Shown piece after piece: positions 1,135 through 25,552 of a DNA stretch of 64,000 nt (its first letter is position 1; each line of letters opens with the position of its first letter). Where the stretch lies: NCBI GenBank assembly GCA_025963725.1, contig JAOQAE010000004.1:369616-433615 (forward strand), read 5' to 3'. The notes under the pieces are model-generated. The model had not been told where the DNA came from. It made no database searches and was given only the letters and a program-made list of their open reading frames with translations. The stretch is from Bacteroidota bacterium. GTDB taxonomy: Bacteria; Bacteroidota; Bacteroidia; 2-12-FULL-35-15. A program made the translations under genes and the position numbers.

Positions 1135-1164
1135 ACGCAATACAATTTTGTATTGCGTTTTTTT
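1135..1164 (+). terminator. Rho-independent terminator
   Basis: Perfect inverted repeat ACGCAATACAA (1135-1145) and TTGTATTGCGT (1148-1158) followed by a run of seven T (1158-1164). It ends the upstream transcript and directly abuts the ATG at 1165. Confidence 0.9.
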
Positions 1165-2256
1165 ATGGATACATTTGAACCCATGTCTGTTGAAGAAATA
1201 AAGCAATTATCCTTTGTATTCATTGTAGCGAGAGGCCGCTCGGGCACCACGCTCATGCAGACCATCCTCGATGCCAATGAAGGCGTGATCCTGCCGATAG
1301 AGTCGAGGCTCATTGTTCACCTGAAGCAGAAATATTTCGGTGTTACCAGCTGGACGCCCGCTTTGCTGGATGAATTTATTCTCGACCTTTATAAGGATAA
1401 AAAATTCAGCCGCTACTGGTCGGTCGACCCTCTAAAGCTCCGCAGCAGCATCGATGCATTACCGATTAAAGAGCTTACGTTCCCTGTGCTTTGCAAGCTC
1501 GTTTACATGAGCTATCCATCGCCCTTTCCCAAAGGCCGCATCACTTTGCTGGGCGATAAGAACCCGATCTTTTCCATTTTCATCAGCGAGCTTACCGAAG
1601 TATTCCCCGAAGCGAAATTCATTCACCTTGTGCGCGATTACCGCGATAACATTTCATCCAACAGGAAAGTGTTCAAGCGCCAAAGCATTGCGCAGCTAAC
1701 TCAGGGCTGGAAAGCATATAATATTTTCATTGAGCAGATCAAAAAGCGTGATCCCAAAAGGTTCTATACGCTGAAGTACGAGGACCTGGCTTCCAATCCG
1801 GCTAAGTTCGTTCCCGAGATCTGCGATTTCCTTGGCATTCAATTCAATCCCGCGATGTTTGAATTTCATACCACCATGCAGCAGGTGAAGGAAGAAAAAT
1901 ATGTGGTGGAGATCACTACCGTGCATCCGAATATTATCAAGCCGATCAATACGGAGCAGGTGGATAAGTGGAAGAAGGTGCTTTCGCCTGCCGACATTGA
2001 GCTGGCTGATTTCATTGCCGGCGATTATGCGAAGCAGTACGGCTATATCCGTGAAACGCATACTGCAAAGCTCAGCTACAGGATCAGGTCGGTGCTGGCG
2101 CTTGCGCGTATCCACCTCGATTTTTTTGTGATCCGCAGCTATTATAAAATGCCCTTCTGGATCCGCGATTCGGTAGGAAAATTCAATGCAAAGCTATACG
2201 CGAAGTTTAAGATCTCGAATTACTACAACCACGCCGATTTCCGGTTCAAGGAATGA
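1165..2256 (+). CDS. Sulfotransferase family protein (P-loop)
   Basis: A 363-residue cytosolic protein of the PAPS-dependent sulfotransferase fold. The 5'-phosphosulfate loop is FIVARGRSGTTLMQ at about residues 19-32 and the 3'-phosphate motif is FIHLVRDYRDNISSNRK near residues 152-168, both expected for transfer of sulfate from PAPS to a sugar, lipid or protein. An in-frame TTG at 1153 lies inside the terminator hairpin, so I chose ATG 1165; ATG 1183 is also possible. It overlaps the 3' end of the convergent hydroxylase gene by 34 bases. Its position beside a glycan/acyl cluster suggests, but does not prove, that it decorates the same product. Confidence 0.88.
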   Translation: MDTFEPMSVEEIKQLSFVFIVARGRSGTTLMQTILDANEGVILPIESRLIVHLKQKYFGVTSWTPALLDEFILDLYKDKKFSRYWSVDPLKLRSSIDALPIKELTFPVLCKLVYMSYPSPFPKGRITLLGDKNPIFSIFISELTEVFPEAKFIHLVRDYRDNISSNRKVFKRQSIAQLTQGWKAYNIFIEQIKKRDPKRFYTLKYEDLASNPAKFVPEICDFLGIQFNPAMFEFHTTMQQVKEEKYVVEITTVHPNIIKPINTEQVDKWKKVLSPADIELADFIAGDYAKQYGYIRETHTAKLSYRIRSVLALARIHLDFFVIRSYYKMPFWIRDSVGKFNAKLYAKFKISNYYNHADFRFKE

Positions 2257-2981
2257 AGCCTTACCCATGCGAATAAGGCGCACAGGAATGCCACCGCTTT
2301 TGTGAAGCCGTTCGTTTTGCCTTTGAAGGTCCCGGTTGCCTGCGCAGCCGTAAGCCACATGATATTCCCATGCACCCTTGCGCAGACCCACGTTTTCCGG
2401 TTTGCGAACTGCGGCCTGATCACATCGAGGATCAGCACCACACGCCTCTGATCCGTATGGTTCCATGCCCGGTGATAGTTCGCATCATTGAAGATGAGGA
2501 ACTTCCCATTCTCCCAGCTTTTGTCTTCATAGCCAACCCTGAAGCCGCATTCGGGCAGCTTGCCGCTTACAATTAATCCGAAGTGACAGCGGTAGATCGC
2601 ATCCGTATCCCCGAAATGCCCTTTGATCTCAGCATGCGGCTCCAGCACGCTTACCGAAGCGGATACAATATCGGGAATGCGTTCCAGCAGCATGATCGTT
2701 TCCGGGCAGCGGCTGCAGGCATTCGCATTCATTCGCAATCCCCAGAAATAAAAGCTGAACGCTTTCCATTTTTCGGGAGCGCTCATCATCTCCGTTGCAA
2801 AGTATGGCTTCAGCGCATTTTTTCCGCCGAGGTATGCGGAAATTTCATCCAGGATCACAGGGTGGTGCTGTTCGATCTCCGCGGTCCATGCAAAGGAGGA
2901 TGGCTCGAAGAAAGTTTCCTTTGCATCGATCCTGTCCCTGCTGTGGACGAAAGAATAATATGGCTTCTTATCCTGCTTCAC
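2223..2981 (-). CDS. Aspartyl/asparaginyl beta-hydroxylase (AspH/LpxO-like) family dioxygenase
   Basis: A 252-residue protein with a GTG start inside the end of the GNAT gene (14-base overlap). The C-terminal half carries the AspH-type Fe(II)/2-oxoglutarate core: GHFGDTDAIYRCHFGLIV with His133, then WENGKFLIFNDANYHRAW with His170, and an Arg pair at 180-181 before VVLILDV for 2-oxoglutarate. As in vertebrate AspH, only two His ligands are evident. Family members hydroxylate Asp/Asn side chains or, in LpxO, lipid A acyl chains. Given the acyl-chain genes upstream in the same operon, an acyl hydroxylase role is a reasonable inference. It is the last gene of the minus-strand operon and overlaps the convergent sulfotransferase by 34 bases. 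Confidence 0.85.
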   Translation of the reverse strand: MKQDKKPYYSFVHSRDRIDAKETFFEPSSFAWTAEIEQHHPVILDEISAYLGGKNALKPYFATEMMSAPEKWKAFSFYFWGLRMNANACSRCPETIMLLERIPDIVSASVSVLEPHAEIKGHFGDTDAIYRCHFGLIVSGKLPECGFRVGYEDKSWENGKFLIFNDANYHRAWNHTDQRRVVLILDVIRPQFANRKTWVCARVHGNIMWLTAAQATGTFKGKTNGFTKAVAFLCALFAWVRLHSLNRKSAWL

Positions 2982-3684
2982 CGCTTGTGTTGTTATCAGC
3001 GGGCCGCAGCGGCTGCTGTCCGTCCCTTTTTAAGCAATGGTTGATCTTCGTTTTTAAATATTCCGGCAGCGGCGAATATAGTTTTTTCAGCTCATCTTCC
3101 GAATCGTCCCTGAATTCAAAATCATCGACGCTCAGCAGTGAAGCGTCGCCTGTGCCGGAAGCAATGGCTTTCCGGAGCTTGCCGATGTGTTTGAAATAAT
3201 TCTCTTTGCTCAGCTCGAACCATTCCACTTCATCGGATGGTGGAAAATCGTTCGAAGGAACATATCCCAGCTGCCTGTTATGGCCTATCGCTTTTGGGTT
3301 GGAGCGGAGGATCTTGATGTAATTCTTTTCGAACTCGTTGATGATAAAATTAAAATCGCTCATGATCACCGATGCCAGCGCGGGATGAATGTTGCCCCAG
3401 TAATCTTTGTCCCAGATGAACATCCCGCCTTCGGAAGTGCGCTTCTCATAATTGATGTTCTTCCCGTCGATCATGCCGATCTGCTTATTGTCGGCAGTAA
3501 TGGTGAAAAAATTATTGTAGATGTTGTTCACGCGGTTGAACCATTCTTTCTGCATCTCCGCTGAAATGTTCTCGCGGAACTGCATGCTGGCCCTGATCTC
3601 ATCGGAGTTGCGCTTTTCACGCACCAGTTCGATGTCCTTCTCCTTTAAGCGCGTTAAGGTTATTCCGTATTTGTGGATTCTCAT
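2968..3684 (-). CDS. GNAT-family N-acyltransferase, PseH-like
   Basis: A 238-residue protein. The first roughly 145 residues look like the RimJ/PseH branch of GNAT: TLTRLKEKDIELVREKRNSD, then IRASMQFRENISAE and EWFNRVNNIYNNFFTI, followed by IGMIDGKNINYEKRTSEGG and the acceptor-side ILRSNPKAIGHNRQLGYVP. PseH-type enzymes acylate the amino group of nucleotide-linked aminosugars. The last 85 residues are acidic and polar, look disordered, and are not part of the usual fold. Start is ATG overlapping the glycosyltransferase stop (TAATG). Cotranscribed with the KAS III/ACP genes, so an acyl-ACP donor rather than acetyl-CoA is conceivable (inference). Confidence 0.78.
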   Translation of the reverse strand: MRIHKYGITLTRLKEKDIELVREKRNSDEIRASMQFRENISAEMQKEWFNRVNNIYNNFFTITADNKQIGMIDGKNINYEKRTSEGGMFIWDKDYWGNIHPALASVIMSDFNFIINEFEKNYIKILRSNPKAIGHNRQLGYVPSNDFPPSDEVEWFELSKENYFKHIGKLRKAIASGTGDASLLSVDDFEFRDDSEDELKKLYSPLPEYLKTKINHCLKRDGQQPLRPADNNTSGEAG

Positions 3685-4607
3685 TACAGCTGCGTTTCAA
3701 TGGAGTAGGGTGGGCGCCTGTTCTGCAGCTGGTAAAGCTTGTAGAGGTATTGCCCGATAATGCCAAGGCAGAACAGGATGAGGCTGGTGCTGAACAGCAC
3801 GCTCACAATTAAAGAGGTGTAGCCCAAAGGCACATCATGAAAGATCTTTCTATACACAAAGCGAAGGCCCACGAAAAAGAACATCACCGAAAGGAACAAT
3901 CCGCCGTAGGTAAGGATGCGCAACGGCCCGGCGCTGTAGTTGATCAGGATATCGAAATAGGTCATGATCAGTTTTCGGATCGTATAGCCCGATGCGCCTG
4001 CCTTGCGCGGATGATGCTCCACATCCACAGTCTCGATCTTGCCCGTGTACCATGCGAGCACGGCGTCGATAAATAAAAAGTTATGGCTGTGGTTCTGCAG
4101 CAGCTTGTTGGTGAGTGAAACCTTCACCAGCCTGAACGATGATCCGCTCTTGTTCTTGCTGTTGGTATGGTCGGATGTTTTCCTTACCATAAAGCTTCCC
4201 GCATTGCGTACTGTCGAATGTTTTTTATTCAGCGGAAGCCCGTAAACAATATCGGCTCCCGTTCTTTCGTAAGTGCTGATCAACTTGGGGATCTCTTCCG
4301 GCGGGTGCTGCAGGTCATCGTCCATGGTGATCACCACTTCGCCCTTGCAGAAATTAAATCCGCAGAGGATCGCATTGTGCTGGCCGAAATTTTTTGACAG
4401 CCTGATCGCCGAGATGTTGAAAGCGGAACCGGCCTTGATCTTTTCGATCTCGCTCCAGCTCTCATCCCTGCTGCCGTCATCCACGAGGATCAGCTCGTAC
4501 GATTTGTCTGTTTGCCTCAGCGTGGAATCGATCCTGCTGCACAGCTCATGCAATGTTTCCTTGCTGTTAAAAACCGGTATTACAACAGATACATCCGTTT
4601 TGTTCAT
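3684..4607 (-). CDS. Family 2 glycosyltransferase, DPM1/GtrB-like polyprenyl-phosphate sugar synthase
   Basis: A 307-residue protein with the GT-A Rossmann core: VSVVIPVFNSKETLHEL at the N-terminus, LILVDDGSRDESW, then the metal-binding ITMDDDLQHPPEEIPKL. Two hydrophobic segments near residues 230-255 and 265-295 form the C-terminal membrane hairpin seen in GtrB, ArnC and DPM1-type enzymes that move a sugar from a nucleotide to undecaprenyl or dolichyl phosphate. The product would be a lipid-linked donor for GT-C enzymes acting outside the membrane; a GT-C candidate is encoded at 7821-9785. The gene follows the SDR stop by one base and overlaps the GNAT start, so it is translationally coupled. 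Confidence 0.9.
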   Translation of the reverse strand: MNKTDVSVVIPVFNSKETLHELCSRIDSTLRQTDKSYELILVDDGSRDESWSEIEKIKAGSAFNISAIRLSKNFGQHNAILCGFNFCKGEVVITMDDDLQHPPEEIPKLISTYERTGADIVYGLPLNKKHSTVRNAGSFMVRKTSDHTNSKNKSGSSFRLVKVSLTNKLLQNHSHNFLFIDAVLAWYTGKIETVDVEHHPRKAGASGYTIRKLIMTYFDILINYSAGPLRILTYGGLFLSVMFFFVGLRFVYRKIFHDVPLGYTSLIVSVLFSTSLILFCLGIIGQYLYKLYQLQNRRPPYSIETQL

Positions 4608-4608
4608 T

Positions 4609-5358
4609 TTATAAACCTCCTAATAAAAAGCCCCCGTCGAGGGTGATGGTTGTTCCCGTGATCCACTTTGAAGCGTCGGATAATAAAAAGATGGCGGCAT
4701 TGGCAACATCCTCCGGAGTGCCTGCTCCCAGCGGGTATTTGCTGATGTGCGCATCCATCTGTTCCTTGGTGCCCTGCGCTTCCGCCTTGTCGTACATCGG
4801 TGTTTTTACCATGGCCGGCGCAATGCAGTTGGAGCGGATCTGCAGGTGAAAGAATTCAAGCGCCACCACTTTGCTGAAGGCTTCTATCGCCGCCTTTGAT
4901 CCTGCATACAAGGCTCCTCCGCGGTGCGGGTGCAGGGCGGAGATCGATGAAAGAAAAACCACCGATGCGCCTTTGTTCAGCTTCTTTGCGCGCGTTGCCT
5001 GCGCTGTAAGAACCACCTGCACTTTATAGTTGATGTTAAATACTTCGTCGATCTTTTTATCGGAAAGGAATTTGATGGGATAGGGGCTCACTGTGCCTGC
5101 GCAGTTCACAATGCCATCCAGCAAAGGCAGCGCTGATACAAGGCGCTGCACTTCCTGCTCGTCCAGCAGCTCCGCCTGTATGCTTTTGTTCTCGCCGCTT
5201 TTCAGCATCGATAATGTTTCGTTCAGCCGCTCTTCATTCCTGCCGGTGATCACCACATTTCCGCCCATTTCGCAGATGCTGATCGCCACCTGCCGCCCGA
5301 TGCCGGAGGAGGCGCCGGTGACAAGAAATGTTTTATTGTGGAGGTGAAAAGCTGTCAT
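4609..5358 (-). CDS. SDR-family oxidoreductase, FabG-like
   Basis: A 249-residue short-chain dehydrogenase/reductase. The cofactor motif TGASSGIG lies at residues 14-21, NCAG follows in the next strand region, a Ser precedes YAGSKAA (the YxxxK catalytic pair), and the C-terminus ends ITLDGGFLLGG, typical of FabG-like proteins. I start at ATG 5358, one base after the upstream stop, rather than the TTG at 5370. FabG-like enzymes reduce 3-ketoacyl-ACP with NADPH, which fits its place directly after a KAS III-ACP pair. A sugar or alcohol substrate cannot be excluded. Confidence 0.9.
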   Translation of the reverse strand: MTAFHLHNKTFLVTGASSGIGRQVAISICEMGGNVVITGRNEERLNETLSMLKSGENKSIQAELLDEQEVQRLVSALPLLDGIVNCAGTVSPYPIKFLSDKKIDEVFNINYKVQVVLTAQATRAKKLNKGASVVFLSSISALHPHRGGALYAGSKAAIEAFSKVVALEFFHLQIRSNCIAPAMVKTPMYDKAEAQGTKEQMDAHISKYPLGAGTPEDVANAAIFLLSDASKWITGTTITLDGGFLLGGL

Positions 5359-5359
5359 G

Positions 5360-6412
5360 TTACAATTCAATTAAAGGTAAGCAAACCATATCTTTTACAT
5401 GCAGGCTGGCCGATCCCCAGGATAATCCCACTCCGAATGCCGAAAGAAAAAGCGACGTGCTGTTTAATGTTTTGTCCTGCAGCTGCGTTACAATGGTAAG
5501 CGGAATGGAGGCGGAGCTTGTGTTTCCGAAGGTATCCAGCGAATAAGGGACTTTCTCCGCCGGCAGCTTCAGTTTCTTACGGATGCTCTCATTCATGATC
5601 TTATTCGCCTGGTGAAAAATAAAATAATCGTAGTCTTCCGTAGTAGTGCCTAAGTGCTTCATTAGTGCCTGCGCATTCTGCGGCGCTTCACGCAATGAAA
5701 AGTTAAACACCTCGATGCCGTCGAGAAATAAATTGCGTTTGTTTTTGATGATCCCCGGCTCATGCTCCTTCATCACTTCCGATTCGCTGGTGTACGGGTT
5801 GCGCAGTCCGCCATCGCTGATCATAATAGCCTTGTAACCGGAGCCGTCGCTTTGTAAATTGAAATTTATTTTTTCTGCCGCAGGATCATATTCAAGCAGC
5901 GTTGCAGTTCCCGCATCACCGAAAATAGGATAGGTGCTCTTGTCTTTTTTTGATTGGGAGAAGCTGGAAACATCCCCAGCCAGCAGCAGGCCTTTTTTGA
6001 AATTGCCGCTGCTCATTAAGTTGGTGATCACGGAAAGCCCGTACAGGTAGCCCGAGCAGCCGAGCTGGATATCGAAGGCCATAGCGCTTTTCGGAAGTCC
6101 GAGGCGGTCCTGCAGAATAATGCTGGTGGCAGGTAAAATATAATCGGGTGATTGTGAAACAAAGATGAGCACTTCCACTTCCGCTTTGTCAACTTTAAAA
6201 TGATCGAGCAATTGCCTTGCCGATTCGTAGCACATATCCGAAGTGCACATGCCGTTCTGCACGATCCTCCGGCTTTCTATGCCAGTGGTCTTGATGAGCA
6301 GCTCGCGCTCCTTTTCAGAGATCCAGTCGTAGTCCCTGTTGCTTTCTGTGTGCTGCGGAACGCAGGCAGCCATGCCCCTGATGTTTATGTTGGCGACAGA
6401 AAGGAATGCCAT
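5360..6412 (-). CDS. Beta-ketoacyl-ACP synthase III-like enzyme (first of two)
   Basis: A 350-residue thiolase-fold condensing enzyme. The KAS III catalytic triad is visible as Cys119 in QLGCSGYLYGL, His267 in IFHQANKI and Asn297 in DTFGNTSSASIP. It lies three bases downstream of the acyl carrier protein gene and one base before the SDR, so the three are surely cotranscribed. Housekeeping FabH primes fatty acid synthesis; this copy is embedded in a glycan/acyl cluster and has a paralogue on the other side of the ACP gene, which points to a specialised short acyl chain. Substrate is unknown. Confidence 0.92.
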   Translation of the reverse strand: MAFLSVANINIRGMAACVPQHTESNRDYDWISEKERELLIKTTGIESRRIVQNGMCTSDMCYESARQLLDHFKVDKAEVEVLIFVSQSPDYILPATSIILQDRLGLPKSAMAFDIQLGCSGYLYGLSVITNLMSSGNFKKGLLLAGDVSSFSQSKKDKSTYPIFGDAGTATLLEYDPAAEKINFNLQSDGSGYKAIMISDGGLRNPYTSESEVMKEHEPGIIKNKRNLFLDGIEVFNFSLREAPQNAQALMKHLGTTTEDYDYFIFHQANKIMNESIRKKLKLPAEKVPYSLDTFGNTSSASIPLTIVTQLQDKTLNSTSLFLSAFGVGLSWGSASLHVKDMVCLPLIEL

Positions 6413-6415
6413 AAT

Positions 6416-6646
6416 TTATACCCTGCTTTTTACTACGTTGAAAAGATCGTTCACCGATTTGCATTGCTGCAGGTCGGCTCCGGTAATGGTAACATTGTAT
6501 TCGGTATCGATGAGCGCGATGAGGATCAGCACATGCATCGAGCTCCATTCCTTGAGGGAAGTGAATTCGGTTTCCGGCTTGAGGGAGCCTGGTGTAAGCT
6601 CTTCTATTTCGTTTTCTATCTGGCTGATAAAAGTAGTAATGTCCAT
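6416..6646 (-). CDS. Acyl carrier protein
   Basis: A 76-residue acidic protein of normal ACP length. The phosphopantetheine attachment region is LKEWSSMHVLILIALIDTEY; by alignment to the classical DSL/DSM motif the modified residue is Ser36, with Ser35 replacing the usual Asp. The second half contains ITGADLQQCKSVNDLFNVV, matching the third helix. It sits between two KAS III-like genes, three bases from the downstream one and 57 bases from the upstream one, and is probably a dedicated carrier for the acyl group they build rather than the fatty acid synthase ACP. Confidence 0.9.
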   Translation of the reverse strand: MDITTFISQIENEIEELTPGSLKPETEFTSLKEWSSMHVLILIALIDTEYNVTITGADLQQCKSVNDLFNVVKSRV

Positions 6647-6703
6647 AAGTGTTTTTTGTCTGTAATGTTGAAGCGGAAATCTTCTCTAAAGTACGTAATA
6701 TTT

Positions 6704-7711
6704 TTACAACCTCACAACTGTTCCTGACCATGAGTAACCGATCCCGAAAGAGGCGAGGAGCACAGTGCTTCCTTTTTTTGCTTTTCCCGCCTTTATGGCT
6801 TCATACAGCGCGATCGGAACAGATGCTGAAACGGTATTGCCGATCTCTTCCATGTACATAAAAAATTTATCTTCCCCGATCTTTAATTTCCTTCGCAGTA
6901 CGCTCAGCAAAAAAGTGTTGGCCTGGTGAAAAACAAAAAGGTCGATGTCTTCTTTCTGCAGCCCGTTCTTTGTGAGGATGTCGCTGATCATCGGAGGCAC
7001 CACGCGCATGGCGAATGAGAAGATCTCGAGCGAATTCATTTTCATCTGCCCGTATTTCATTCCGCCAACATCCTTGTTCTTTTCAAACCATTCGGCATCT
7101 GCAGCATTGCGTGTGCCGCTGCGCTCCACCATTAAATTATCTGCGCCGCTGCCGTCGGTGCCGAAGGAGAATTTTCCAACCCCATTGCTGATCTCCTCAT
7201 TGGATGTGATCAGTGTTGCAGCTCCCGCATCGCCGAAGATCATCCGCAATTCAGCATCGGAAGGATGGATCACCGTTGAGGGTATGTCCGAAGTAAGCAG
7301 CAGCACCGAATTTGCCTGCCCGCTTTCGATTAATCCTTTTGCCACGCTAAGCCCGTAGGTAAAACCCGTGCAGCCGAAAGGCACATCTATGGCGCCGCTG
7401 CTGGTAGGCAGCCCTAAGCGGTGCTGCAGGATGCAGGCCGTTGCCGGGCCTTTGTAATCAAGGCCTTCGGTGCAGAAAATTAAAAAATCGATTGTTGAAG
7501 GGTCGATCCCGTGTTCGCTGAACAGCTTCATCCCCGCTTCGTAGCCAAGGTCCGAGCCTACAACGCCATCTTTCGTGATATGCCTTTTGCGGATGCCGGT
7601 GCGTTTGAAAATGTCGTTTTCCGTAAGCGCAGGAAAGATACTGCAGAGCTCACTGTTGGAAAGTGTATGCTCCGGTAAGTAATAGCTGATGGCTTGAATA
7701 TAGGCGCTCAC
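6704..7711 (-). CDS. Beta-ketoacyl-ACP synthase III-like enzyme (second)
   Basis: A 335-residue condensing enzyme with a complete KAS III triad: Cys114 in PFGCTGFTYGL, His262 in VFHQANTF and Asn292 in EIGNTVSASVP. It is clearly diverged from its neighbour at 5360-6412 although the same motifs are present, so this is an old duplication or two separate recruitments rather than a recent copy. It is the first gene of the minus-strand operon that ends at 2223, with a promoter-like -7 box just upstream. Probably builds or transfers an acyl group on the ACP encoded next. Confidence 0.92.
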   Translation of the reverse strand: MSAYIQAISYYLPEHTLSNSELCSIFPALTENDIFKRTGIRKRHITKDGVVGSDLGYEAGMKLFSEHGIDPSTIDFLIFCTEGLDYKGPATACILQHRLGLPTSSGAIDVPFGCTGFTYGLSVAKGLIESGQANSVLLLTSDIPSTVIHPSDAELRMIFGDAGAATLITSNEEISNGVGKFSFGTDGSGADNLMVERSGTRNAADAEWFEKNKDVGGMKYGQMKMNSLEIFSFAMRVVPPMISDILTKNGLQKEDIDLFVFHQANTFLLSVLRRKLKIGEDKFFMYMEEIGNTVSASVPIALYEAIKAGKAKKGSTVLLASFGIGYSWSGTVVRL

Positions 7712-7728
7712 GTAAATTCGGTTTACTG

Positions 7729-7736
7729 CAAATTTA
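7729..7736 (-). promoter_or_regulatory. Promoter -7 box of the KAS III operon
   Basis: On the minus strand this reads TAAATTTG, a full match to the Bacteroidota consensus TAnnTTTG, 17 bases before the ATG at 7711. No clear -33 TTG is seen at the expected distance. It is divergent from the promoter at 7791-7798. Confidence 0.5.
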
Positions 7737-7765
7737 AAAAAATACCCTAATGATTATAATTATAA

Positions 7766-7798
7766 TTGGCCGCCATTGCAAAGTATTTTATAAATTTG
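7766..7798 (+). promoter_or_regulatory. Promoter of the TMTC-like gene
   Basis: TAAATTTG at 7791-7798 matches TAnnTTTG. A TTG at 7766-7768 stands 22 bases upstream, slightly longer than the usual -33 spacing. The start codon is 22 bases downstream. Confidence 0.5.
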
Positions 7799-7820
7799 AC
7801 TGTTTGCATAAAGCTTCAGT

Positions 7821-9785
7821 ATGGCACGTTTCATTTCGCTTCCTCCTTCCATCGATAAAAAAACATTCAAGAATTGCATTTACCTTTTTTGTGTGCTTAC
7901 TTTTCTCATTTATGGCAAAAGCATTGGCAACGGCTATTCGATGGACGATGAATATGTGATCCATAACAATACGCAGGTGCATGGCGGCATTGCCAAAATT
8001 CCCGAGATCTTCCGCAGCACTTATGCCATCGACGAGAAGGCCAGCTTTGAATACCGCCCGCTTGTAAAAGTAACATACGCCATCGAGTACCAGTTCTTCG
8101 GGGAGAGCCCGCACATCAGCCATTTCATCAATCTCCTCATTTATATTCTTTGTTTGATCCTTTTGTTTTATGCGCTGCTCCGCTTGCTGCCGGCATATCA
8201 TTACCTGTTTGCGCTTACGGTTGCGCTGCTCTTCTTAATTCATCCGCTGCATTCCGAAGTGGTGATCAGCCTCAAGAACAGAGACGTAATGATGAGCTTC
8301 ATTGGTTGCATGTGCAGCCTATTGTTTTATTTGCGTTATGTGGAAGGAAAAGGAAATGCTGCTGTGAACCTTGCGCTTGGCTTTTTTCTTCTCCTGCTCG
8401 GCATCATGTCGAAAAAGGACGCGATCACCTTTTTTGCCATTATCCCTTTTTCCATGTGGTTCTTCCGCGATGCCGGCTGGAAAAAGATCGGGCTCATTTT
8501 TCTTACGTATCTTCCCGTGGCCATCATATTCAGGCTGGCGGCAAAGTCGGTGACCAATAGCAATGTACGTACGCTGCTCCTTTGGGAAAACCCGCTGTTC
8601 ATTCATTCCACCCTCACCGAACGCATTCCGCAGGCGTTTTACAGCCTTTATTTTTATCTGAAGATGTTTTTGCTTCCGCATCCGCTCATCTCTTATTACG
8701 GTTACAACCAGGTTCCTATAGTCGGCTGGAGCCATCCCGTTGTTTGGATCATGCTCCTCCTGCTTACCGGGCTGGTGTTTCTTATCATAAAGCTGAGGGC
8801 GGTAAAGGAGCTTTGGTTCTATGGCATAATTTATTTCCTTATCACGATCTCCATGTTCACAAATGTGGTGGTGCCTGTTGTGGGTATTGTGGGTGAGCGC
8901 TTTGCATACATTCCTTCTGTGGGCTTGTGCATTGTTGCAGCATATTTCCTGCTGAACTATTTTAAAGTGCCGCTGCAGAACCTTGCGCTGAAGCTGAAGC
9001 TGGTGAGCAACGGTTATTGGCTGGCCATTGCATTGGCCCTGCTGCTGTACGGAGGTAAATCATTTTCAAGGAATGCCGATTGGAAGGATGCTTATACGCT
9101 TTATCATACCGATGTGGAAACGGCATCCGAGTCGGCGCATACGCATTCGCTCCTTGCTGCAACCGCATTGTCGCGGGTAAAAGCGGAGCCGCGCCTGCCG
9201 AAGGCTGAAAAGAAGCGCCTGGTGCTGGAAGCGGAAGCGCATTACCTCGAATCCATCCGGATCATACCCGATTACACCTCCTCGCACAACAACCTTGGGA
9301 TGTTGTATTATACCTACCTGGCCGACAACGCAAAAGCTACAAGGCACCTGGAAAAGGCCGTGGCGCTGGATTCCAACTATGTGGAAGCTTACTTTAACCT
9401 TGGCAGCTGCTATGCCGCAGCGCAGAAGTATGACCTCGCTGAAAAGTGTTACTTACGCTCCGTGAAGCTCAATCCGAGGTTCACAACGGCATACCAGGCG
9501 CTCAGCAATCTTTACGGAATACAGAAAAAATACGACCAGATCCTGCGCCTGAACCAGGAAGCCATCGATAAGGGAGTGAAATCGGATGTGATGTACGTGA
9601 ACATCGGGAATGTTTACTTTGTAAGCGGCGATACGCTGAAGGCCCTGCCTTATCTCGAAAAGGCGATCGAATTCAATCCCGACAACAGGGGAGTGAACGC
9701 TTTTCTGGCCAACTGGTACCAGGGAAAAGGCGATAAGCAGAGATCCGCTTACTATTACGATCTTATGTCACGCTCCTCGCGCTAA
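7821..9785 (+). CDS. TMTC-like membrane glycosyltransferase (GT-C) with C-terminal TPR repeats
   Basis: A 654-residue protein. Residues 1 to about 440 hold some ten membrane helices; after the first one comes the acidic loop SMDDEYVIHN (Asp42, Asp43, Glu44), expected to bind metal or lipid-phosphate sugar in GT-C enzymes. Further family-like motifs are EYRPLVKVTYAIEY, HPLHSEVVISLKNRD and GERFAYIPSVGL. Residues about 470-654 are tetratricopeptide repeats (SHNNLGMLYYTYL, AYFNLGSCYAAAQKYDLAEK). This layout is that of the animal TMTC O-mannosyltransferases, which use dolichyl-phosphate-mannose to modify cadherin beta-sandwich domains. Substrate and sugar here are inferred only. It diverges from the operon with the lipid-phosphate-sugar synthase and precedes a giant Ser/Thr-rich secreted protein. 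Confidence 0.82.
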   Translation: MARFISLPPSIDKKTFKNCIYLFCVLTFLIYGKSIGNGYSMDDEYVIHNNTQVHGGIAKIPEIFRSTYAIDEKASFEYRPLVKVTYAIEYQFFGESPHISHFINLLIYILCLILLFYALLRLLPAYHYLFALTVALLFLIHPLHSEVVISLKNRDVMMSFIGCMCSLLFYLRYVEGKGNAAVNLALGFFLLLLGIMSKKDAITFFAIIPFSMWFFRDAGWKKIGLIFLTYLPVAIIFRLAAKSVTNSNVRTLLLWENPLFIHSTLTERIPQAFYSLYFYLKMFLLPHPLISYYGYNQVPIVGWSHPVVWIMLLLLTGLVFLIIKLRAVKELWFYGIIYFLITISMFTNVVVPVVGIVGERFAYIPSVGLCIVAAYFLLNYFKVPLQNLALKLKLVSNGYWLAIALALLLYGGKSFSRNADWKDAYTLYHTDVETASESAHTHSLLAATALSRVKAEPRLPKAEKKRLVLEAEAHYLESIRIIPDYTSSHNNLGMLYYTYLADNAKATRHLEKAVALDSNYVEAYFNLGSCYAAAQKYDLAEKCYLRSVKLNPRFTTAYQALSNLYGIQKKYDQILRLNQEAIDKGVKSDVMYVNIGNVYFVSGDTLKALPYLEKAIEFNPDNRGVNAFLANWYQGKGDKQRSAYYYDLMSRSSR

Positions 9786-10360: not shown

Positions 10361-10399
10361 TTGCTTTTAAATTTCTCTAAGAACACTAAACCAAGCCAT

Positions 10400-13300
10400 A
10401 TGAAAAGAATCCTATTCTTTTTTGCATTTATTGTATTGTCCTCGGGATCAATATTTGCCCAGGGAAGCAACTGTGCCAGCGCAACTCCATTTTGCGGAAG
10501 CGCAACTTTCGCTAATAACACATCTACCGTTTCACAGGCGGGGCCCAGCTACGGATGTTTGGGTACACAGCCTAATCCGGCCTGGTTCTTCGTAAAAACG
10601 ACAGGTGCGGGGAACATGGTGTATAACATCAGCCAGGTAAATACCGCCGGAACGGGGATCGATGTCGATTTCATTGCCTGGGGGCCTTTTGCCAGTATGG
10701 CCAACGCCTGTAACACCTTAACGGGTTCTTGTACAGGAAATCACGCCTGCTCGGGAAATATTGAAGATTGCGGATACAGTACCGCTGCGGTGGAAACAAT
10801 GACCCTTGTGTCGCCGGGTGCCGGACAATATTACGTGATCCTTATCACCAACTATGCCGATCAGAATGGTACCATCACATTTAACCAGACCAGCGGGCCT
10901 CCGTCCGATTGCTCCATTACCTGTCCGAGCGTAACTTCAGGTAATGGTTACCTGTTAACGAATGGCAGCCCCGTCCCATCGTCAGTCGCCTGTAGTACCG
11001 CCCCTTTTGGGATGATAGCCTCCAATAATACCCCGTTCGGGAATCCCATTACCCCCGGGGTCATGATCTCGTTTACATCAAATACCAATAATACGCTCCA
11101 GATCAACTGGTTTGAAAACTCCAGCTATGTGCTGTGCGCCGGGCCTGTCGCCTCCGGCTGCGGCATCCAGATCCCTACAAGTACAAATGAAGACATCCAG
11201 TTCTCCACGATGTCGCCTTCGGCCACCAACGATATCCAGTTTTGTGAAACGAGTACCGCCGATGGTAACATGCCTTACCAGATCGTCGACGTATCAAGCG
11301 GAACAATTTTAAACTCCGGCACCTGGGTCACCGATGCACTTTGCACCACGGTATCATTCCCTCCGGGAACAATTTCCGGGGTAGCTACATGGAGCATTTC
11401 ACCGGCATGCCCGGGTTGTATGACCACCACCGACTGGGGATATGCCACGTTCAATCCGGGTGTTGCACCTGCAGGAACGTACAATGTCTGCTATTCATTT
11501 GACCCTCCGGGAACTTGTCCTACTTATACTTATTGTCAGAACATCACAGTTACCAATCCGAACAATCCTGCATGGACCACTCCTGCGGCAATGTGTGCGA
11601 ATGCGGCTTCTGTCAATCTGAATACCCTTGTTACAGGTACTGCCGGCGGAACATGGTCGGGAACAGGTGTATCGGGCACAAGCTTCAATCCGGCCGTTTC
11701 AGGTCCGGGAACTTTTTCGGTGACCTATACTGTGGGTTCGGGAAGCTGCTCTGCAACCCAGTCGCATAACATTACCGTAAACCCTGTACCTACGGTTTCC
11801 ATCAGCCCTGCTTCTTCAACCATCTGTGCCGGAGCTTCCGTTACATTAACGGCAACACCCTCTCTCGGCGGAGGTACCTATTCATGGGCACCGGGCGGCG
11901 CAACAACTTCATCTATCACTGTAACGCCGGGATCAACCACTACTTATACAGTTACTTATACATTATCCGGCTGTACCGGAACAGCTACAAGGCTCATCAC
12001 TGTGAATCCAATACCTACGGTGAGTGTAAGCAGCCCGGCGCCTATCTGTGCAGGCGGTTCAGCAACCTTAACTGCCACGCCTTCCATAGGTGGAGGTACT
12101 TATTCCTGGTCGCCTGGAGGAGCTACAACGGCTTCTATCACCGTGTCACCGGCCTCAACTACTACTTATACGGTAACGTATACGCTCTCCGGCTGTACCA
12201 ACACAGGAACGGGAACAGTAACGGTTAACCCGGCTCCAACGGTCAGCATTACACCGGCTTCCGCTACTATTTGTGCCGGACAGTCTGCTACCTTAACGGC
12301 GAATCCTTCCGTGGGAGGTGGTACCTATTCATGGGCTCCGGGTGGCGCTACAACAGCTACCATTACGGTTTCTCCTGCAGGCTCCACAACATATACCGTA
12401 ACCTACTCATTATCGGGCTGCTCCACTACGGCGAACAGGTTGATCACAGTGAACCCGGTACCTACAGTAACGGTAAATAATCCGGCCGCGGTATGTGCGG
12501 GCTCCTCTGCCACGCTTACTGCCACTCCTTCAACAGGCGGCGGTACCTATTCATGGGCGCCCGGCGGAGCAACAACCTCTTCGATCACGGTATCTCCGGC
12601 ATCCACAACTACTTATACTGTGACATACTCGCTCGCGGGTTGCTCGGGAACAGGAACCGGAACGGTTACCATCAACCCTGTGCCTACTGTGAGCATCACA
12701 CCGGCATCTTCAACCATTTGTGCCGGACAGTCTGCTTCACTTACCGCTAACCCTTCATTGGGCGGAGGTACGTATTCATGGGCTCCGGGTGGCGCTACCA
12801 CTTCTACCATCACGGTTTCCCCTGCTTCATCCACAACGTATACGGTAACCTACAGCTTATCCGGCTGTACAACTACCGCAACGCGTTTAATTACAGTGAA
12901 CCCGGTTCCTACGGTTTCCGTGAACACGCCGGCAGCCATTTGCGCGGGTACCTCAACTACGCTTACTGCAACGCCTGCTCCGGGCGGGGGAACTTATTCC
13001 TGGTCTCCGGGTGGTGCCACAACGCAATCAATAACAGTTTCACCGGCTTCTTCAACAACTTACACTGTAACTTATACATTAACGGGTTGTTCCGGAACAG
13101 GAACAAGCACCGTAACGGTAAATCCTCAGCCTACGGTAAGCATAACGCCTGCAACATCCACCATTTGCGTGGGTGCCTCGGCATCGCTTACGGCTAACCC
13201 TTCATTAGGCGGCGGTACTTATTCATGGGCACCGGGCGGAGCTACTACTGCATCGGTAACTGTATCTCCTGCAAGCACTACTACTTATACTGTTACTTAC

Positions 13301-16300
13301 ACGCTGGCCGGCTGTACTGCCACCGGAACACGCGTGGTAACTGTGAACCCTATGGATAATGCTGCTTTCACCTACAGCTCATCCACGTATTGCCAGACAG
13401 GTGCCGATCCTTCGGCAACGATCACCGGCCTTCCGGGAGGTACGTTCAGCTCAAGTCCGGGAGGCCTCGTATTCCTGAGCACTTCCACCGGGCAGATAGA
13501 TGTAAGCGCCAGCGCGCTGAATACCTATACGGTTACTTATACCACTAACGGAACCTGTCCGAACACAAGCTCCGTGAACATTACCATTTCAAGTGCCCCT
13601 GCGGCCACGTTCAGCTATGCCGGCCCTTATTGCCAGTCGGCGGCTAATCCTACACCTACATTCAGCGGTGGCGGCAGCGCGGGTACATTCTCTTCTACAG
13701 GCGGACTTGTATTTGTGAATGTGAACACCGGCCAGATCAACCTTTCTGCAAGTACCCCGGGAACATACACGGTAACAAATACAATTGCTGCCAGCGGCGG
13801 ATGTGCTTCTGCAGTTGCAACCAACACCATCACGATCAATCCTTCACCGGTGATCACTGCAACACCGGCATCACAAACCATCTGCTCCGGATCGGCAACC
13901 TCCATTGCATTGTCGAGCTCGATAGGCGGAACATCTTATTCCTGGACAGTAAGCCAGACCGGTACCAGCGGCGCTTCTGCAGGTTCGGGAAGCAGCATCG
14001 CACAAACGCTTACAGCCACAGGTGCGGTAAACGGAACTGCAACCTATACCGTTACTTCGCTTTCAGGCGGATGTGCCGGAAATACGCTGATCATCACGAT
14101 CACGGTAAAACCAGTGCCTACAGTTACCCCGAGCCCGGTGGCACAAACCATCTGCTCTGGTAATACAACAAGTATCACGCTCACCGGAAGCCTCGCGGGT
14201 ACCACATTCGCATGGGGCGCACCAACACAAACAGCTGCCTCGGGTGGTACTGCGAGTTCAGGTTCCAGCATTGTTCAAACATTGAATGCAACAGGCGCAG
14301 GGGCCGGTACCGTTACATACAACGTGGTTCCTACAGCCAATGGCTGTCCGGGAGCTTCTGTCCCGGTTGTGATCACAGTTAATCCTGCACCGGTTGCAAC
14401 GGCAACACCTGCCGTATCCACGATCTGTTCAGGAGCGCCCACATCCGTAAGCTTAACAAGCACTGTTGGAGGAACTACCTTCAACTGGACTGCCGCTAAC
14501 GGAACAGGTATCTCCGGTGCAGCTTCAGGATCGGGATCCGCCATCAGCCAGGTATTGACCAACTCTTCCGCTGTAGTGGCTGCAGGCACCTATACAGTTA
14601 CACCTTCTGCATCGGGCTGTCCGGGCGGTACAATCACGGTTACCGTGAATGTGAATCCTGTACCTAACGTTACTCCAAGCCCTGCTTCTCAAACCATCTG
14701 CTCAGGTACTGCTACCAGCATTTCCTTATCAGGAACAGTTGCGGGAACAACATTCGCATGGGGCGCACCTACGCAATCAGCCGCTACAGGCGGAGCTGCG
14801 GGTTCCGGAAGCAGCATAACACAAACACTTACAAGTACGGGTGCAGGCGCAGGCACTGTTACCTATAACGTGATCCCTACGGCCAATGGCTGCCCGGGAG
14901 CCGGCGTGCCGGTGGTTATTAACGTGAATCCCGTTCCATTTGTCACTGCAACACCGGCAAGTGCCACTATCTGTTCAGGCGCAAGCACAGCGATCAACCT
15001 GACCAGCTTTACGGCAGGTACAACATTCAGCTGGACCGCATCTAACGGCGCTGGTATTTCAGGCGCTGTGGCAGGCTCAGGTGCCAGCATTATACAATCG
15101 CTCACAAATTCAGGGACTACCACGGGTACGGCAACCTATACAGTGACGCCTTCAGCATCAGGCTGTCCGGGCGCACCCATTACTGTTACCATTACAGTAA
15201 ATCCTGTTCCTAACGTAACGGCTACGCCTTCCGGACAGTCGATCTGCTCGGGAAGCACAACAGGCATCGCGTTAAGCAGCACCGTTGCAGGAACTACGTT
15301 TGCATGGGGCGCACCTGCTCAGACAGGCGCTACAGGCGGAACATCCGGCTCAGGAAGCTCGATCGCGCAGGTATTAACAGCATCAGGCACAACAACAGGA
15401 ACTGTTACCTATAACATTACTCCAACGGCCAACGGCTGCCCGGGAACACCTCTGGCAGTAAGCATCACTGTTGAGCCAAACCCTACGGTGAATGCAACGC
15501 CATCTTCTTCTTCGATCTGCTCAGGAACGGCAACATCCATTGCTCTTTCAAGCAACATCGCGGGAACAGGCTTTACCTGGACGGCAACCGCTTCCGGCGC
15601 AAGCGGAGAATCGGCGGGCTCGGGAAGCTCCATTTCACAGGTGCTTACGGCTACGGGAACATCGGCAGGAACAGTAACTTATAACGTAACAGCTACAACA
15701 CCTGCAGGATGTACCGCTACTATGCCTCCGGTAACAGTAACGGTTAATCCTACGCCGGATGTAAGCGCAACCCCGGTTGGTGCCACCATCTGCTCGGGTG
15801 CTACAACAGGCATCGCATTAACAAGCAGTGTGAGCGGAACAACATTTACATGGACAGCTTCCCAGACCGGCGCTTCCGGTGCAACAGCCGGATCAGGCTC
15901 AAGCATAGCGCAGGTGCTTACGGCAACAGGATCAACTCCGGGCTCGGTAGTGTATACTATCACACCTTCTGCAAGCGGCTGTGCAAGCGGCTCGCCGGTG
16001 TCGGTTACCATTGCGGTTAACCCATTGCCGGTTGTAACTGCAACGCCTTCCTCACAGAATATCTGTGATGCGGCAGCTACAAGCATCAGCTTAACAAGCA
16101 GCCTCGGATCCACTACGTTCAACTGGACAGTGAGCCAGACAAATGTTACAGGCGCTGCTGCAGGAACAGGAACATCCATTTCACAGCTGCTCGATCTTGT
16201 TAGCGCTACAACTGCAGGATCTGCGGTTTATACGATCACGCCCACTGATAACGGATGCGCAGGCAGCCCGGTTACAGTTACCGTGAATGTGAACCCGATC

Positions 16301-19139: not shown

Positions 19140-19559
19140 ATGCCTACTATCCAGCAATTAGTGCGTAAAGGAAGAACAAAAGCTGCTAACAGAAGTAAAT
19201 CTGCAGCTCTTGAATCAAGCCCTCAGAAACGTGGAGTATGTACCCGTGTTTATACAACCACCCCTAAAAAGCCAAACTCAGCAATGAGAAAGGTTGCCCG
19301 TGTTCGTTTAACGAACAAAAAAGAGGTGAATGCATACATTCCGGGAGAAGGCCACAACCTTCAGGAACACTCGATCGTTCTGATCCGCGGTGGAAGGGTA
19401 AAAGATCTTCCGGGAGTACGTTACCACATTGTGCGTGGTGCATTGGATACATCCGGAGTTGACGGACGTAACCAGAGGCGTTCAAAATACGGAACTAAAA
19501 AACCAAAAGCAGGAGCTAAAGGAGCACCGGCTAAAGGAGCACCGGCTAAAAAGAAATAA
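19140..19559 (+). CDS. rpsL: 30S ribosomal protein S12
   Basis: 139 residues. The decoding-centre loops are intact: [13 protein letters not shown] with Lys43, and [14 protein letters not shown] with Lys88 and Asp89, the residues that are changed in streptomycin-resistant or accuracy mutants of other bacteria, so the wild-type state is predicted. The protein is about 15 residues longer than the E. coli form because of a basic tail [12 protein letters not shown] made by a tandem 15-bp duplication. First gene of the operon, 64 bases after the predicted transcription start. Confidence 0.98.
19521..19550 (+). repeat. Exact 15-bp tandem duplication in the rpsL tail
   Basis: GGAGCACCGGCTAAA occurs twice in a row (19521-19535, 19536-19550), encoding GAPAK twice; a decayed third unit (GGAGCTAAA) precedes it. 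Confidence 0.9.
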
Positions 19560-19628
19560 AGAGAACCGGGTAAGGATTTGAGTAAGGAAACCCCTGAAGC
19601 AACAAATACGAGCCCTAAATAAATAACA

Positions 19629-20096
19629 ATGAGAAAGACCAAAGCAAAAAAGAGAATCCTTTTACCGGATCCAAAATTTAACGATGTGTTAGTTACACGT
19701 TTCGTGAATAACCTGATGTATGATGGCAAAAAAAGCATTTCGTACGATGTGTTTTATGATGCAATCGATATCGTTCAGAAAAGAACGGAAGCTGACGGCC
19801 TGGAGACATGGAAAAAAGCGTTAAGCAATGTAACACCCGCTGTTGAGGTTCGTTCCCGCAGGGTTGGTGGTGCAACTTTCCAGATCCCTTCTGAGATCCG
19901 CCCGGAAAGAAAAGTATCAATGGGTATCAAATGGATGATCCTTTATGCTCGCAAGCGTAACGAAAAATCAATGGCTGCGAAATTAGCAGGGGAGATCGTT
20001 GCTGCTTCAAAAGAAGAAGGCGCTGCTTTCAAAAAGAAAGAAGACGTTCATAAAATGGCAGAAGCGAACAAAGCGTTCTCTCACTTCCGTTTTTAA
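19629..20096 (+). CDS. rpsG: 30S ribosomal protein S7
   Basis: 155 residues, normal length. Begins [20 protein letters not shown] and contains [15 protein letters not shown] and [20 protein letters not shown], the beta-hairpin region that contacts 16S rRNA and the E-site tRNA. It organises the 3' major domain of 16S rRNA. Lies 69 bases after rpsL; its stop codon is the first part of a long hairpin (20095-20130) that may modulate read-through to fusA. Confidence 0.98.
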
Positions 20097-20130
20097 ATAA
20101 TGTTGGCGCTTTAGCGACTTACATTATTTT
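20095..20130 (+). promoter_or_regulatory. Hairpin between rpsG and fusA, possible attenuator
   Basis: AAATAATGT (20095-20103) pairs perfectly with ACATTATTT (20121-20129), with an inner CGC-TTTA-GCG stem, followed by TTTTATCC. The left arm overlaps the rpsG stop codon. A second short stem ATCCC/GGGAT follows at 20131-20150. Confidence 0.5.
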
Positions 20131-20183
20131 ATCCCTGCGTAGGCCGGGATCTTTAAATTAAGAATAAAAGAAAGAAAGATAAA

Positions 20184-22301
20184 ATGTCAGATTTAAAATA
20201 TACAAGGAACATCGGGATCGCTGCCCACATTGATGCTGGTAAAACAACAACAACTGAGCGGATCCTTTATTACACTGGTGTTAATCACAAGATCGGTGAG
20301 GTGCATGATGGAGCTGCTACTATGGACTGGATGGTTCAGGAGCAGGAGCGTGGTATAACAATCACATCAGCAGCAACTACCTGTTTCTGGAATTACCGCG
20401 GTGATAAATACAAAGTAAACATTATCGATACCCCGGGCCACGTGGATTTCACCGTTGAGGTGAACCGTTCATTACGTGTACTCGATGGTCTTGTTTTCCT
20501 GTTCTCTGCAGTTGACGGTGTTGAGCCGCAATCAGAGACCAACTGGAGGCTTGCAAATAACTACAACGTAACCCGTTTGGGATTCGTAAATAAAATGGAC
20601 CGTTCCGGTGCCGACTTTTTAAATGTTGTAAAACAGGTAAAAGAAGTATTGGGAGGTAATCCATTGCCATTGCAGCTGCCTATCGGTGCTGAAGAAACAT
20701 TTATCGGTGTTGTCGACCTGATCAACAACCGCGGTATTGTTTGGAATGAAGAAGACAAGGGAATGACCTTCAAAGAAGTTCCTATCCCGGAAGATATGCA
20801 GGAAGATGTAACTTATTGGAGAGGCCAGCTTCTTGAAGCGATCGCTGAATTCGATGAGTCACTGATGGAGAAATTCTTCGAAGACCCGAACTCGATCACA
20901 GAAAGAGAAGTACTTACCGCTTTGCGCCAGGCTTGCCTCGCAAACAAAGTGGTTCCTATGGTTTGCGGATCATCTTTCAAAAACAAAGGTGTTCAGACCA
21001 TGCTTGACCTTGTTATGGAATTAATGCCTTCTCCTTTGGATAAGGACGTTACCCATGGCATCAACCCTGACACTGATGAGCCTGTTACACGTAAACCGGA
21101 TGTAAAAGAGCCGTTCACAGCCCTTGCATTTAAGATCGCAACCGATCCGTTTGTAGGCCGTTTATGTTTCTTCCGCGCTTATGCAGGCCGTCTGGATGCA
21201 GGTTCTTATGTACTGAACACACGCAGCGGGAACAAAGAGCGTATTTCACGTATCTTCCAGATGCACGCGAACAAGCAGAATGCAATTGAATTCATTGAAG
21301 CAGGAGATATCGGAGCAGCAGTTGGATTTAAGGACATTCGTACAGGAGATACCTTATGTGATGAAAAACACCCGATCGTTCTTGAGGCGATGAACTTCCC
21401 TGAGCCGGTTATCGGTATCGCTATCGAGCCAAAAACACAGGCCGATCTTGATAAATTAGGCGTAGCCCTTAACAAGCTTGCTGAAGAAGATCCTACATTC
21501 CGCGTTAAAACGGATGAGGACAGCGGACAAACGATCGTTAGCGGTATGGGTGAGCTTCACCTTGAGATCATCGTTGACCGTTTGAAGCGCGAGTTCAAAG
21601 TGGAAGTAAACCAGGGAGCTCCCCAGGTATCTTACAAAGAAACGATCAACGGTTCTGTTGAGCACCGTGAAGTATATAAGAAACAGTCCGGTGGACGCGG
21701 TAAATTTGCCGACATTAAATTTGTGGCATCTCCTGTTGACGCTGATTGGGATATTGTTAAGGATGGCGGATTACAGTTCATCAACGAGATCTCCGGTGGT
21801 AACATTCCACGCGAATTCATCCCTGCAGTTGAAAAAGGATTCAAGCAGGCAATGGTAAACGGAGTATTGGCCGGCTACCCGATGGATTCCCTGAAGATCC
21901 GCTTAATTGATGGTTCTTACCACAACGTCGATTCAGATGCACTGTCATTTGAGATCGCAGCACGCACAGCTTTCCGTGAGGCATTGCCAAAATGTAAGCC
22001 TGTATTGTTAGAGCCGATCATGAAAATTGAGGTTCTCACACCGGAGCAGAACATGGGTGATGTTGTAGGGGATTTGAACAAGCGCCGCGGACAGATCGAG
22101 GGAATGGACTCCAAAGGAGTTACCCAGGTGATCAAGGCAAAAGTACCACTGTCGGAAATGTTCGGTTATGTAACACAGTTGCGTACCATCACTTCAGGAC
22201 GTGCTACCAGCACCATGGAATTCGACCACTATGCAGAAACTCCGCGCGCAATCGCAGATGAGGTGATCGCTAAATCAAAAGGTAAAACAGAAAAAGTATA
22301 A
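20184..22301 (+). CDS. fusA: Translation elongation factor G
   Basis: 705 residues, full length. GTPase motifs are all present: [14 protein letters not shown] (14-27), RGITI (56-60), DTPGHVDF (82-89) and [10 protein letters not shown]. Domain IV holds the translocation tip region [16 protein letters not shown], and the C-terminus carries [17 protein letters not shown]. Catalyses GTP-driven translocation on the ribosome. Many Bacteroidota also have a second EF-G used in ribosome recycling; this operon-encoded copy should be the translocase. tuf is not next to it, unlike in E. coli; rpsJ follows after 27 bases. Confidence 0.97.
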
Positions 22302-22328
22302 TCTAACGAACGTTCTTTATATAAAATC

Positions 22329-22637
22329 ATGAGCCAGAAAATCAGAATCAAATTAAAATCTTACGATTTCAACTTAGTTGATAAATCCGCGGAGAAGATT
22401 GTTAAAACGGTAAAAATGACCGGAGCCGTTGTAAGTGGACCAATTCCATTGCCAACACACAAAAAGATCTACACTGTTTTACGTTCACCGCACGTTAACA
22501 AAAAAGCACGTGAGCAGTTTCAGTTATGCTCTTACAAAAGATTGCTTGACATCTACAACTCAACTTCCAAAACAGTTGACGCTTTAATGAAGCTTGAATT
22601 GCCTAGCGGAGTAGAAGTAGAGATCAAAGCATCTTAA
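22329..22637 (+). CDS. rpsJ: 30S ribosomal protein S10
   Basis: 102 residues, normal length, with [20 protein letters not shown] and the loop [22 protein letters not shown], which packs on 16S rRNA in the head. It begins the S10 section, here fused to the str section without a visible promoter (27-base gap after fusA). S10 in other bacteria also joins NusB in antitermination. Confidence 0.98.
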
Positions 22638-22673
22638 TTAACAGAAAAGTAAAAACAAATAAATAAATAAACA

Positions 22674-23297: not shown

Positions 23298-23362
23298 TTT
23301 GGTCCGCCTTAAGGCAGATTAATACTTGACTATTCAACAATTTTACAAATCAACAATTCACA

Positions 23363-23992: not shown

Positions 23993-23996
23993 TAAG

Positions 23997-25520: not shown

Positions 25521-25552
25521 TTTAAGTAAAGAGATTATAATATAACGAAAAA

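Follow-up and report, generated by a model that had tools for sequence, protein, structure and literature searches.

The seven-gene operon and its surroundings

The window analysed here is a stretch of 64,000 nucleotides of contig JAOQAE010000004.1 (assembly GCA_025963725.1) from a Bacteroidota bacterium, and close to its start lies a compact operon of seven minus-strand genes that occurs only once in its own genome (4.8 Mb). The operon codes for two ketoacyl synthases of the KAS III type (KAS IIIa and KAS IIIb), an acyl carrier protein (ACP), a short-chain dehydrogenase/reductase (SDR), a GT2 glycosyltransferase, a GNAT family protein, and a hydroxylase of the AspH type (Table 1). We consider it fairly probable that it makes an N-acylated 4-amino-4,6-dideoxy sugar linked to undecaprenyl phosphate, which a GT-C glycosyltransferase would then transfer to an acceptor in the cell envelope.

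Table 1. Features of the operon and of the adjoining DNA, in window positions
Feature	Position	Strand	Basis
KAS IIIa, FabH-type ketoacyl synthase	6704..7711	-	Pfam PF08541/PF08545; NCBIfam NF006829 above cut-off; C114/H262/N292
Dedicated acyl carrier protein	6416..6646	-	Pfam PF00550 above cut-off; phosphopantetheine Ser36
KAS IIIb	5360..6412	-	Pfam KAS III; C119/H267/N297; found in every related locus
SDR, likely 3-oxoacyl-ACP reductase	4609..5370	-	Pfam PF13561; S141/Y155/K159
GT2 polyprenyl-phosphate-sugar synthase, ArnC-like	3684..4607	-	Best NCBIfam match ArnC
GNAT, likely sugar N-acyltransferase	2968..3684	-	PseH-like fold; sub-threshold Pfam
Fe(II)/2-oxoglutarate hydroxylase, AspH/OlsC type	2223..2981	-	Pfam PF05118; H133, H170, R180
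Convergent sulfotransferase	1153..2256	+	Pfam PF13469/PF00685; recurs in related loci
Divergent TMTC-like GT-C membrane glycosyltransferase, C-terminal TPRs	7821..9785	+	Alignment; GT-C fold match
Intergenic region, 109 bases, between divergent transcription units	7712..7820	.	Sequence

All seven open reading frames are present within 2223-7711 and their catalytic residues are intact. In the order of transcription from KAS IIIa to the hydroxylase the junctions are +57, +3, -11, +1, -1, and -14 bases, as in a preliminary description of this DNA which gave gaps of 1 to 57 bases or overlaps. The junction between KAS IIIb and the SDR is +1 rather than -11 if the SDR begins at an internal ATG at 5358, which may be its true start. 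The same description had noted a convergent sulfotransferase; the gene is there and its 3' end overlaps the end of the hydroxylase gene by 34 bases. The limits that it had set to the operon hold for the seven genes but omit the divergent TMTC-like gene, which belongs to the conserved neighbourhood. The region between the divergent units probably hosts the promoters of both; promoter-like matches in it were no more frequent than in shuffled sequence. Pfam confirmed the gene families named earlier, that is, KAS III (twice), the phosphopantetheine-binding domain, SDR, GT2, the AspH domain, and the sulfotransferase, except for the GNAT, which scored just below the cut-offs and yet has PseH as its best fold in the PDB.

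Conservation of the operon

Searching with the ACP found the locus in 26 of 59 genomes, and the GNAT was found in 26 of the 59, mostly the same ones; the named relatives are metagenome-assembled genomes of Bacteroidetes. Some 20 other loci, spread over many genera, repeat the order KAS IIIa-ACP-KAS IIIb-SDR-GT2-GNAT, and since six genes share order and orientation in these relatives the cluster is beyond chance. The preliminary description had named the absence of the GNAT and AspH genes from all homologous clusters as a reason to abandon its reading, but no intact core locus lacks the GNAT. Beyond the lineage few genomes have the GNAT: a survey of the phylum found it in 10 of 395, and of the others only two matched with E < 1e-10. 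The AspH-type gene is present in zero to three copies per locus and trails the core in about half of the loci, sometimes on the opposite strand. In related loci the sulfotransferase gene is often convergent and the TMTC-like gene usually divergent from KAS IIIa. Ribosomal genes of the str cluster directly adjoin the TMTC-like gene in loci L037 and L047 and therefore the position of the operon is conserved as well; in the window, the str/S10/spc/alpha cluster (rpsL, rpsG, fusA, and others) lies at 19140-38127.

The acyl-building module

The catalytic triad of KAS IIIa is kept in 24/24 homologues and that of KAS IIIb in 34/34. Ser36 of the ACP, the serine that had been pointed out earlier, is kept in 33/33, and this ACP is the only match in its own genome at E <= 0.001. 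The SDR keeps its Tyr and its Lys each in 30/31 homologues, and it scores below the cut-offs of the 3-oxoacyl-ACP reductase models. KAS IIIa falls in a supported clade of its own (0.993), to which the KAS IIIa proteins from Flavobacterium-type loci also belong. When the own genome was searched with KAS IIIb only three KAS III were found, namely, KAS IIIa, KAS IIIb, and the housekeeping FabH. Synthesis of flexirubin or dialkylresorcinol was considered and ruled out, the DarB and StlD models being far below cut-off.

With these enzymes, KAS IIIb would condense acetyl and malonyl units to acetoacetyl on the dedicated ACP and the SDR would reduce this to 3-hydroxybutyryl-ACP. KAS IIIa would then extend the chain by two carbons and a second reduction by the SDR would give the C6 product, 3,5-dihydroxyhexanoyl-ACP. 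The arrangement of two KAS III around one ACP, which was the central surprise of the preliminary description, had already been described in the wfpC-G genes of Flavobacterium psychrophilum (PMC6519341).

A variant compatible with the same pathway is that the chain stays at C4. The two KAS III would then differ in their primer or be partly redundant, and the product would be a 3-hydroxybutyryl or a branched acyl group, as in viosamine and anthrose. Pseudomonas syringae makes a C4 chain with one KAS (PMC3927599), and minimal GNAT loci occur (L049, L105, L106, and L107) that lack both KAS IIIa and the SDR and consist of only the ACP, KAS IIIb, GT2, and GNAT; in these the chain may stay unreduced or rely on FabG. 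On the other hand, full-core loci keep both KAS, each with an intact triad, and the two-KAS precedent yields C6 (PMC6519341). We regard a C4 chain as possible but not likely.

The GNAT and the amino sugar

The predicted model of the GNAT has a mean pLDDT of 93, and about 60 residues at its C-terminus form a helical extension. PseH, its best fold match, acetylates a 4-amino-4,6-dideoxy sugar. When the GNAT profile was run against PDB sequences it matched chains of PseH and of FdhC (5kta), the latter an enzyme that presumably uses a 3-hydroxybutanoyl donor. Within 5.5 kb of the operon there is no PglD homologue, and the GNAT would fill the acyltransferase role.

Five clear aminotransferases of the DegT family are encoded in the own genome, and one of them is WecE (506 bits against the NF008687 cut-off of 375). 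The WecE cut-off is also passed in L103, L028, and L025, in the last by one of two models. The gene lies inside the gene set in L103 and L190 and within or beside the loci in L025 and L028, and weaker forms are found in or beside L102 and L106. Among genomes with the operon 23 of 24 carry a WecE above cut-off, and among those without it 15 of 35 do (Fisher p 2e-5); in the same-genus subset the counts are 17/17 and 10/19 (p 0.001). The weakness of this test is that it is uncorrected for shared ancestry beyond the split by genus. From this linkage and co-occurrence the acceptor of the GNAT is likely dTDP-Fuc4N. WecE, encoded elsewhere in the genome, would supply dTDP-Fuc4N and the GNAT would transfer the acyl chain to its 4-amino group.

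Lipid-linked transfer by the GT2 and the TMTC-like protein

The best NCBIfam match of the GT2 is to ArnC across its length, but at 170 bits it is below the NF007986 cut-off of 529 and we call it ArnC-like only. Its closest solved relative is ArnC (E 5.5e-42) and its DDD motif is conserved. This enzyme would load the acyl-sugar on undecaprenyl phosphate. The preliminary description had proposed a short 3-keto or 3-hydroxy acyl chain on a private ACP, a GNAT acting on an amino sugar, and a lipid-phosphate-sugar synthase; this outline is supported, and the GNAT and GT2 co-occur.

The TMTC-like protein was modelled together with its homologues. In structural alignments of the predicted model a GT-C fold spans residues ~10-434 and matches STT3 of the yeast oligosaccharyltransferase (Z 18.8 over 324 residues), Pmt4 (Z 18.1, rmsd 4.4 over 350 residues), and ArnT (Z 17.2, rmsd 4.7 over 335 residues). 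The motifs of TMTC proteins are DD in the first loop, YRP, and an Arg before TM10 (PMC7801869), and in the alignment the window protein keeps DD at 42-43, YRP at 78-80, and R360 besides C-terminal tetratricopeptide repeats (TPRs). The window protein had no match to Pfam TMTC_DUF1736 or PMT_2 whereas its homologues in L025 and L102 match over cut-off. A sequence profile of the N-terminal half gave no match against PDB sequences, and the 50 Foldseek matches listed for the model were TPR or other helical-repeat proteins. Since the GT2 is nearest to ArnC and the product of the divergent gene combines the TMTC motifs with a GT-C fold that ArnT and Pmt4 share, we view the two as a donor-making enzyme and transferase of the ArnC/ArnT kind. 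Such a pair is coherent because, among proteins of solved structure, ArnT is named as the one nearest to the membrane domains of TMTCs (PMC7801869). After flipping, the TMTC-like protein would transfer the acyl-sugar to an envelope acceptor, either protein or glycan. The genome has three further TMTC-like proteins that are 29-33% identical (C3:583865, C4:742449, and C4:740544), two of them in tandem, so that proteins of the TMTC type also occur away from the operon. In the literature searched we found no report of the substrates of bacterial TMTC-like enzymes, and the operon gives a concrete donor candidate for them.

One acyl module with two outlets

We compared 26 loci having the GT2 and GNAT with 19 loci having KAS IIIb and ACP together with a PglD/NeuD-type protein, all of them picked because they resemble proteins of the window rather than sampled at random. 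KAS IIIb and the ACP are in all compared loci of both classes, while KAS IIIa is optional in both. The ArnC-like GT2, the GNAT, and the TMTC-like gene are absent from 19/19 PglD-type loci, and of the 26 GT2 and GNAT loci 18 have a TMTC-like gene no more than 5.5 kb from KAS IIIb. L103 and L190 are intermediates with GNAT and WecE but without GT2. It appears that one acyl module (ACP and KAS IIIb, with KAS IIIa and SDR optional) serves two outlets, a PglD-type one in O-polysaccharide-type loci and one of GNAT and ArnC-like GT2 that in most loci comes with a TMTC-like GT-C protein. Testable rules follow: one KAS predicts a C4 acyl group and two KAS a C6 group, and GNAT with WecE predicts Fuc4N while PglD with PglE predicts Qui2NAc4N. 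A Rieske-type oxygenase gene (GbcA-like, below cut-off) is inserted in the Flavobacterium-type KAS-ACP-SDR module of L184 at 8299-9381 (-). It differs from the AspH type, and a gene of similar size is in L185, L186, L191, and L193; only that of L184 was scanned.

The acyl-sugar might instead be an ordinary O-antigen or capsule residue, with the operon split off from an O-polysaccharide locus and the GT2 and TMTC-like protein decorating the polysaccharide in a Gtr-like manner. Pairs of a lipid-phosphate-sugar enzyme and a GT-C enzyme modify O-antigens too. The GNAT-type modules of L103 and L190 adjoin nucleotide-sugar and ABC-transporter-like genes, and related KAS-ACP-SDR-PglD modules sit in O-polysaccharide-type loci, as also in PMC6519341. 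However, in the lineage of the window the operon adjoins giant surface proteins of the type IX secretion system (T9SS) and the ribosomal str cluster and does not lie in a polysaccharide locus, and the PglD-type loci have neither GT2 nor TMTC. This explanation is rather unlikely.

The hydroxylase and the sulfotransferase

The hydroxylase scores 135.9 bits against PF05118 (gathering score 22.6). Aligned to human AspH, its metal-binding His pair and 2-oxoglutarate Arg (Table 1) are kept in 19/19 and position 135 is never acidic. The earlier assignment to the LpxO type does not hold, the score being 66 bits against the NF033391 cut-off of 500, and membership in OlsC was likewise rejected (112 bits against the NF052565 cut-off of 450). 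The pathway that we propose has two optional reactions: the hydroxylase would hydroxylate either the acyl chain or the acceptor, and a hydroxyl would be sulfated by the sulfotransferase. That the operon makes no glycan but a lipid or a free secondary metabolite, such as an amino-lipid with an N-acyl group and with OlsC-like hydroxylation and sulfation, is very improbable. In its favour, the best curated model for the hydroxylase is OlsC, an ornithine-lipid acyl hydroxylase, a sulfotransferase is nearby, and some operons (L043 at 15770-18352, L048, and L028 at 794-2839) have as neighbours genes for FAD halogenase-like, acyl-CoA dehydrogenase, and AMP-ligase/ACP (FAAL-like) proteins. Against it, the core has a GT2 that matches ArnC over its length and a GNAT whose best fold match is PseH, the hydroxylase, which is the strongest link to lipids, is the variable gene, and WecE is inside or beside several loci.

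Weighing the pathway and its acceptor

Several findings weigh against the pathway of an undecaprenyl-phosphate-linked acyl-sugar. The GNAT is below the PseH equivalog TIGR03585 (35.7 bits against 93.1) as well as below the Pfam cut-offs. The WecE gene of the own genome is not adjacent to the operon, and the 15 operon-less genomes noted above carry WecE too. The own genome also encodes PseC-type and LegC-type aminotransferases, so that the sugar may be a different amino sugar. The tryptophan that the own FabH has at the position of Trp32 in Escherichia coli FabH, a CoA-binding residue, has been lost from both KAS III, and therefore their primers are possibly not acetyl-CoA. There is no TMTC-like gene near 8 of the 26 GT2 and GNAT loci, and the hydroxylase and the sulfotransferase are variable among loci.

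The final acceptor is the least certain point of the model. On either side of the operon, at 10361-18853 (+) and at 1-670 (+, starting before the window), lie genes for giant surface proteins that have PKD/Ig-like repeats and a T9SS type B sorting domain, and a large Ig-like protein is also beside the operon in L102. These adjacent proteins were considered as TMTC targets, and this is unconfirmed: the own genome has 54 matches to the T9SS type B sorting domain and the adjacency is explicable by synteny. It is quite improbable that the TMTC-type GT-C protein attaches N-(dihydroxyacyl)-Fuc4N with additional hydroxylation and sulfation to Ser/Thr of the adjacent Ig-like/PKD adhesins. If true, this would be a bacterial counterpart of the O-mannosylation that cadherin domains receive through TMTCs, and a sugar bearing an ACP-built acyl group would stand in for mannose. 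Elsewhere in the window, at 51592-54304 (-), three paralogous secreted proteins are encoded in tandem; they are 281-285 residues long and share the N-terminal motif LKSYSA.AGT..AA...A.AQ.VYTD.

Comparison with known systems

The closest precedent for the acyl module is the O-polysaccharide locus of F. psychrophilum, in which wfpC and wfpE (KAS), wfpD (ACP), wfpF (reductase), and wfpG (PglD-like) were assigned to 3,5-dihydroxyhexanoyl; the structure of this group was determined by NMR and the pathway was predicted from the genes (PMC6519341). As in the window, two KAS, one ACP, and one reductase are adjacent and there is an N-acyltransferase for a 4-amino sugar. There, however, the acyltransferase is PglD-like, the sugar is UDP-Qui2NAc4N (PglE/PglF), and the genes are in a Wzx/Wzy O-antigen locus, whereas here we find the GNAT, probably dTDP-Fuc4N (WecE), the ArnC-like GT2, the TMTC-like GT-C protein, the AspH-type hydroxylase, and the sulfotransferase. 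In P. syringae, deletion of the reductase gene vioR abolishes modified viosamine, and vioS (KAS III), acp, and vioB are in the same island (PMC3927599). The vioA/vioB/vioS/vioR/acp system likewise has a KAS III, an ACP, a reductase, and an acyltransferase, and its product is a dTDP-linked N-(3-hydroxybutyryl) 4-amino-4,6-dideoxy sugar. It differs in having one KAS and a C4 product, in transfer by VioT to the flagellin glycan, and in that the island is without a lipid-phosphate-sugar synthase.

For the transfer half, the ArnC/ArnT aminoarabinose pathway is similar in that a GT2 loads a 4-N-acylated amino sugar on undecaprenyl phosphate and a GT-C enzyme transfers it, but the acyl group is formyl rather than multi-carbon, the sugar is a pentose, and the acceptor is lipid A. 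Here the GT2 is below the ArnC cut-off and its GT-C partner is TMTC-like with TPRs. In the pathway for enterobacterial common antigen WecE makes dTDP-Fuc4N and WecD, a GNAT, N-acylates it; the donor is acetyl-CoA and the product is polymeric. The animal TMTC1-4 O-mannosyltransferases (PMC7801869) share the GT-C membrane domain, DD, YRP, the conserved Arg, and C-terminal TPRs, while the protein in the window is bacterial and its donor is probably an undecaprenyl-phosphate-linked acyl-aminosugar.

A paper on O-glycosylation in Bacteroidota (PMC12871550) gave no hit for Fuc4N, sulfation, or hydroxybutyryl. The preliminary description recognised no known pathway with this gene set. For the acyl module this has to be corrected in view of the two precedents (PMC6519341, PMC3927599), but in the literature searched no description was found of an acyl module together with a GNAT, an ArnC-like GT2, a TMTC-like GT-C protein, an AspH-type hydroxylase, and a sulfotransferase. 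The acyl-making half is known from other bacteria, and its coupling to the GNAT, GT2, and GT-C transfer machinery is a new arrangement.

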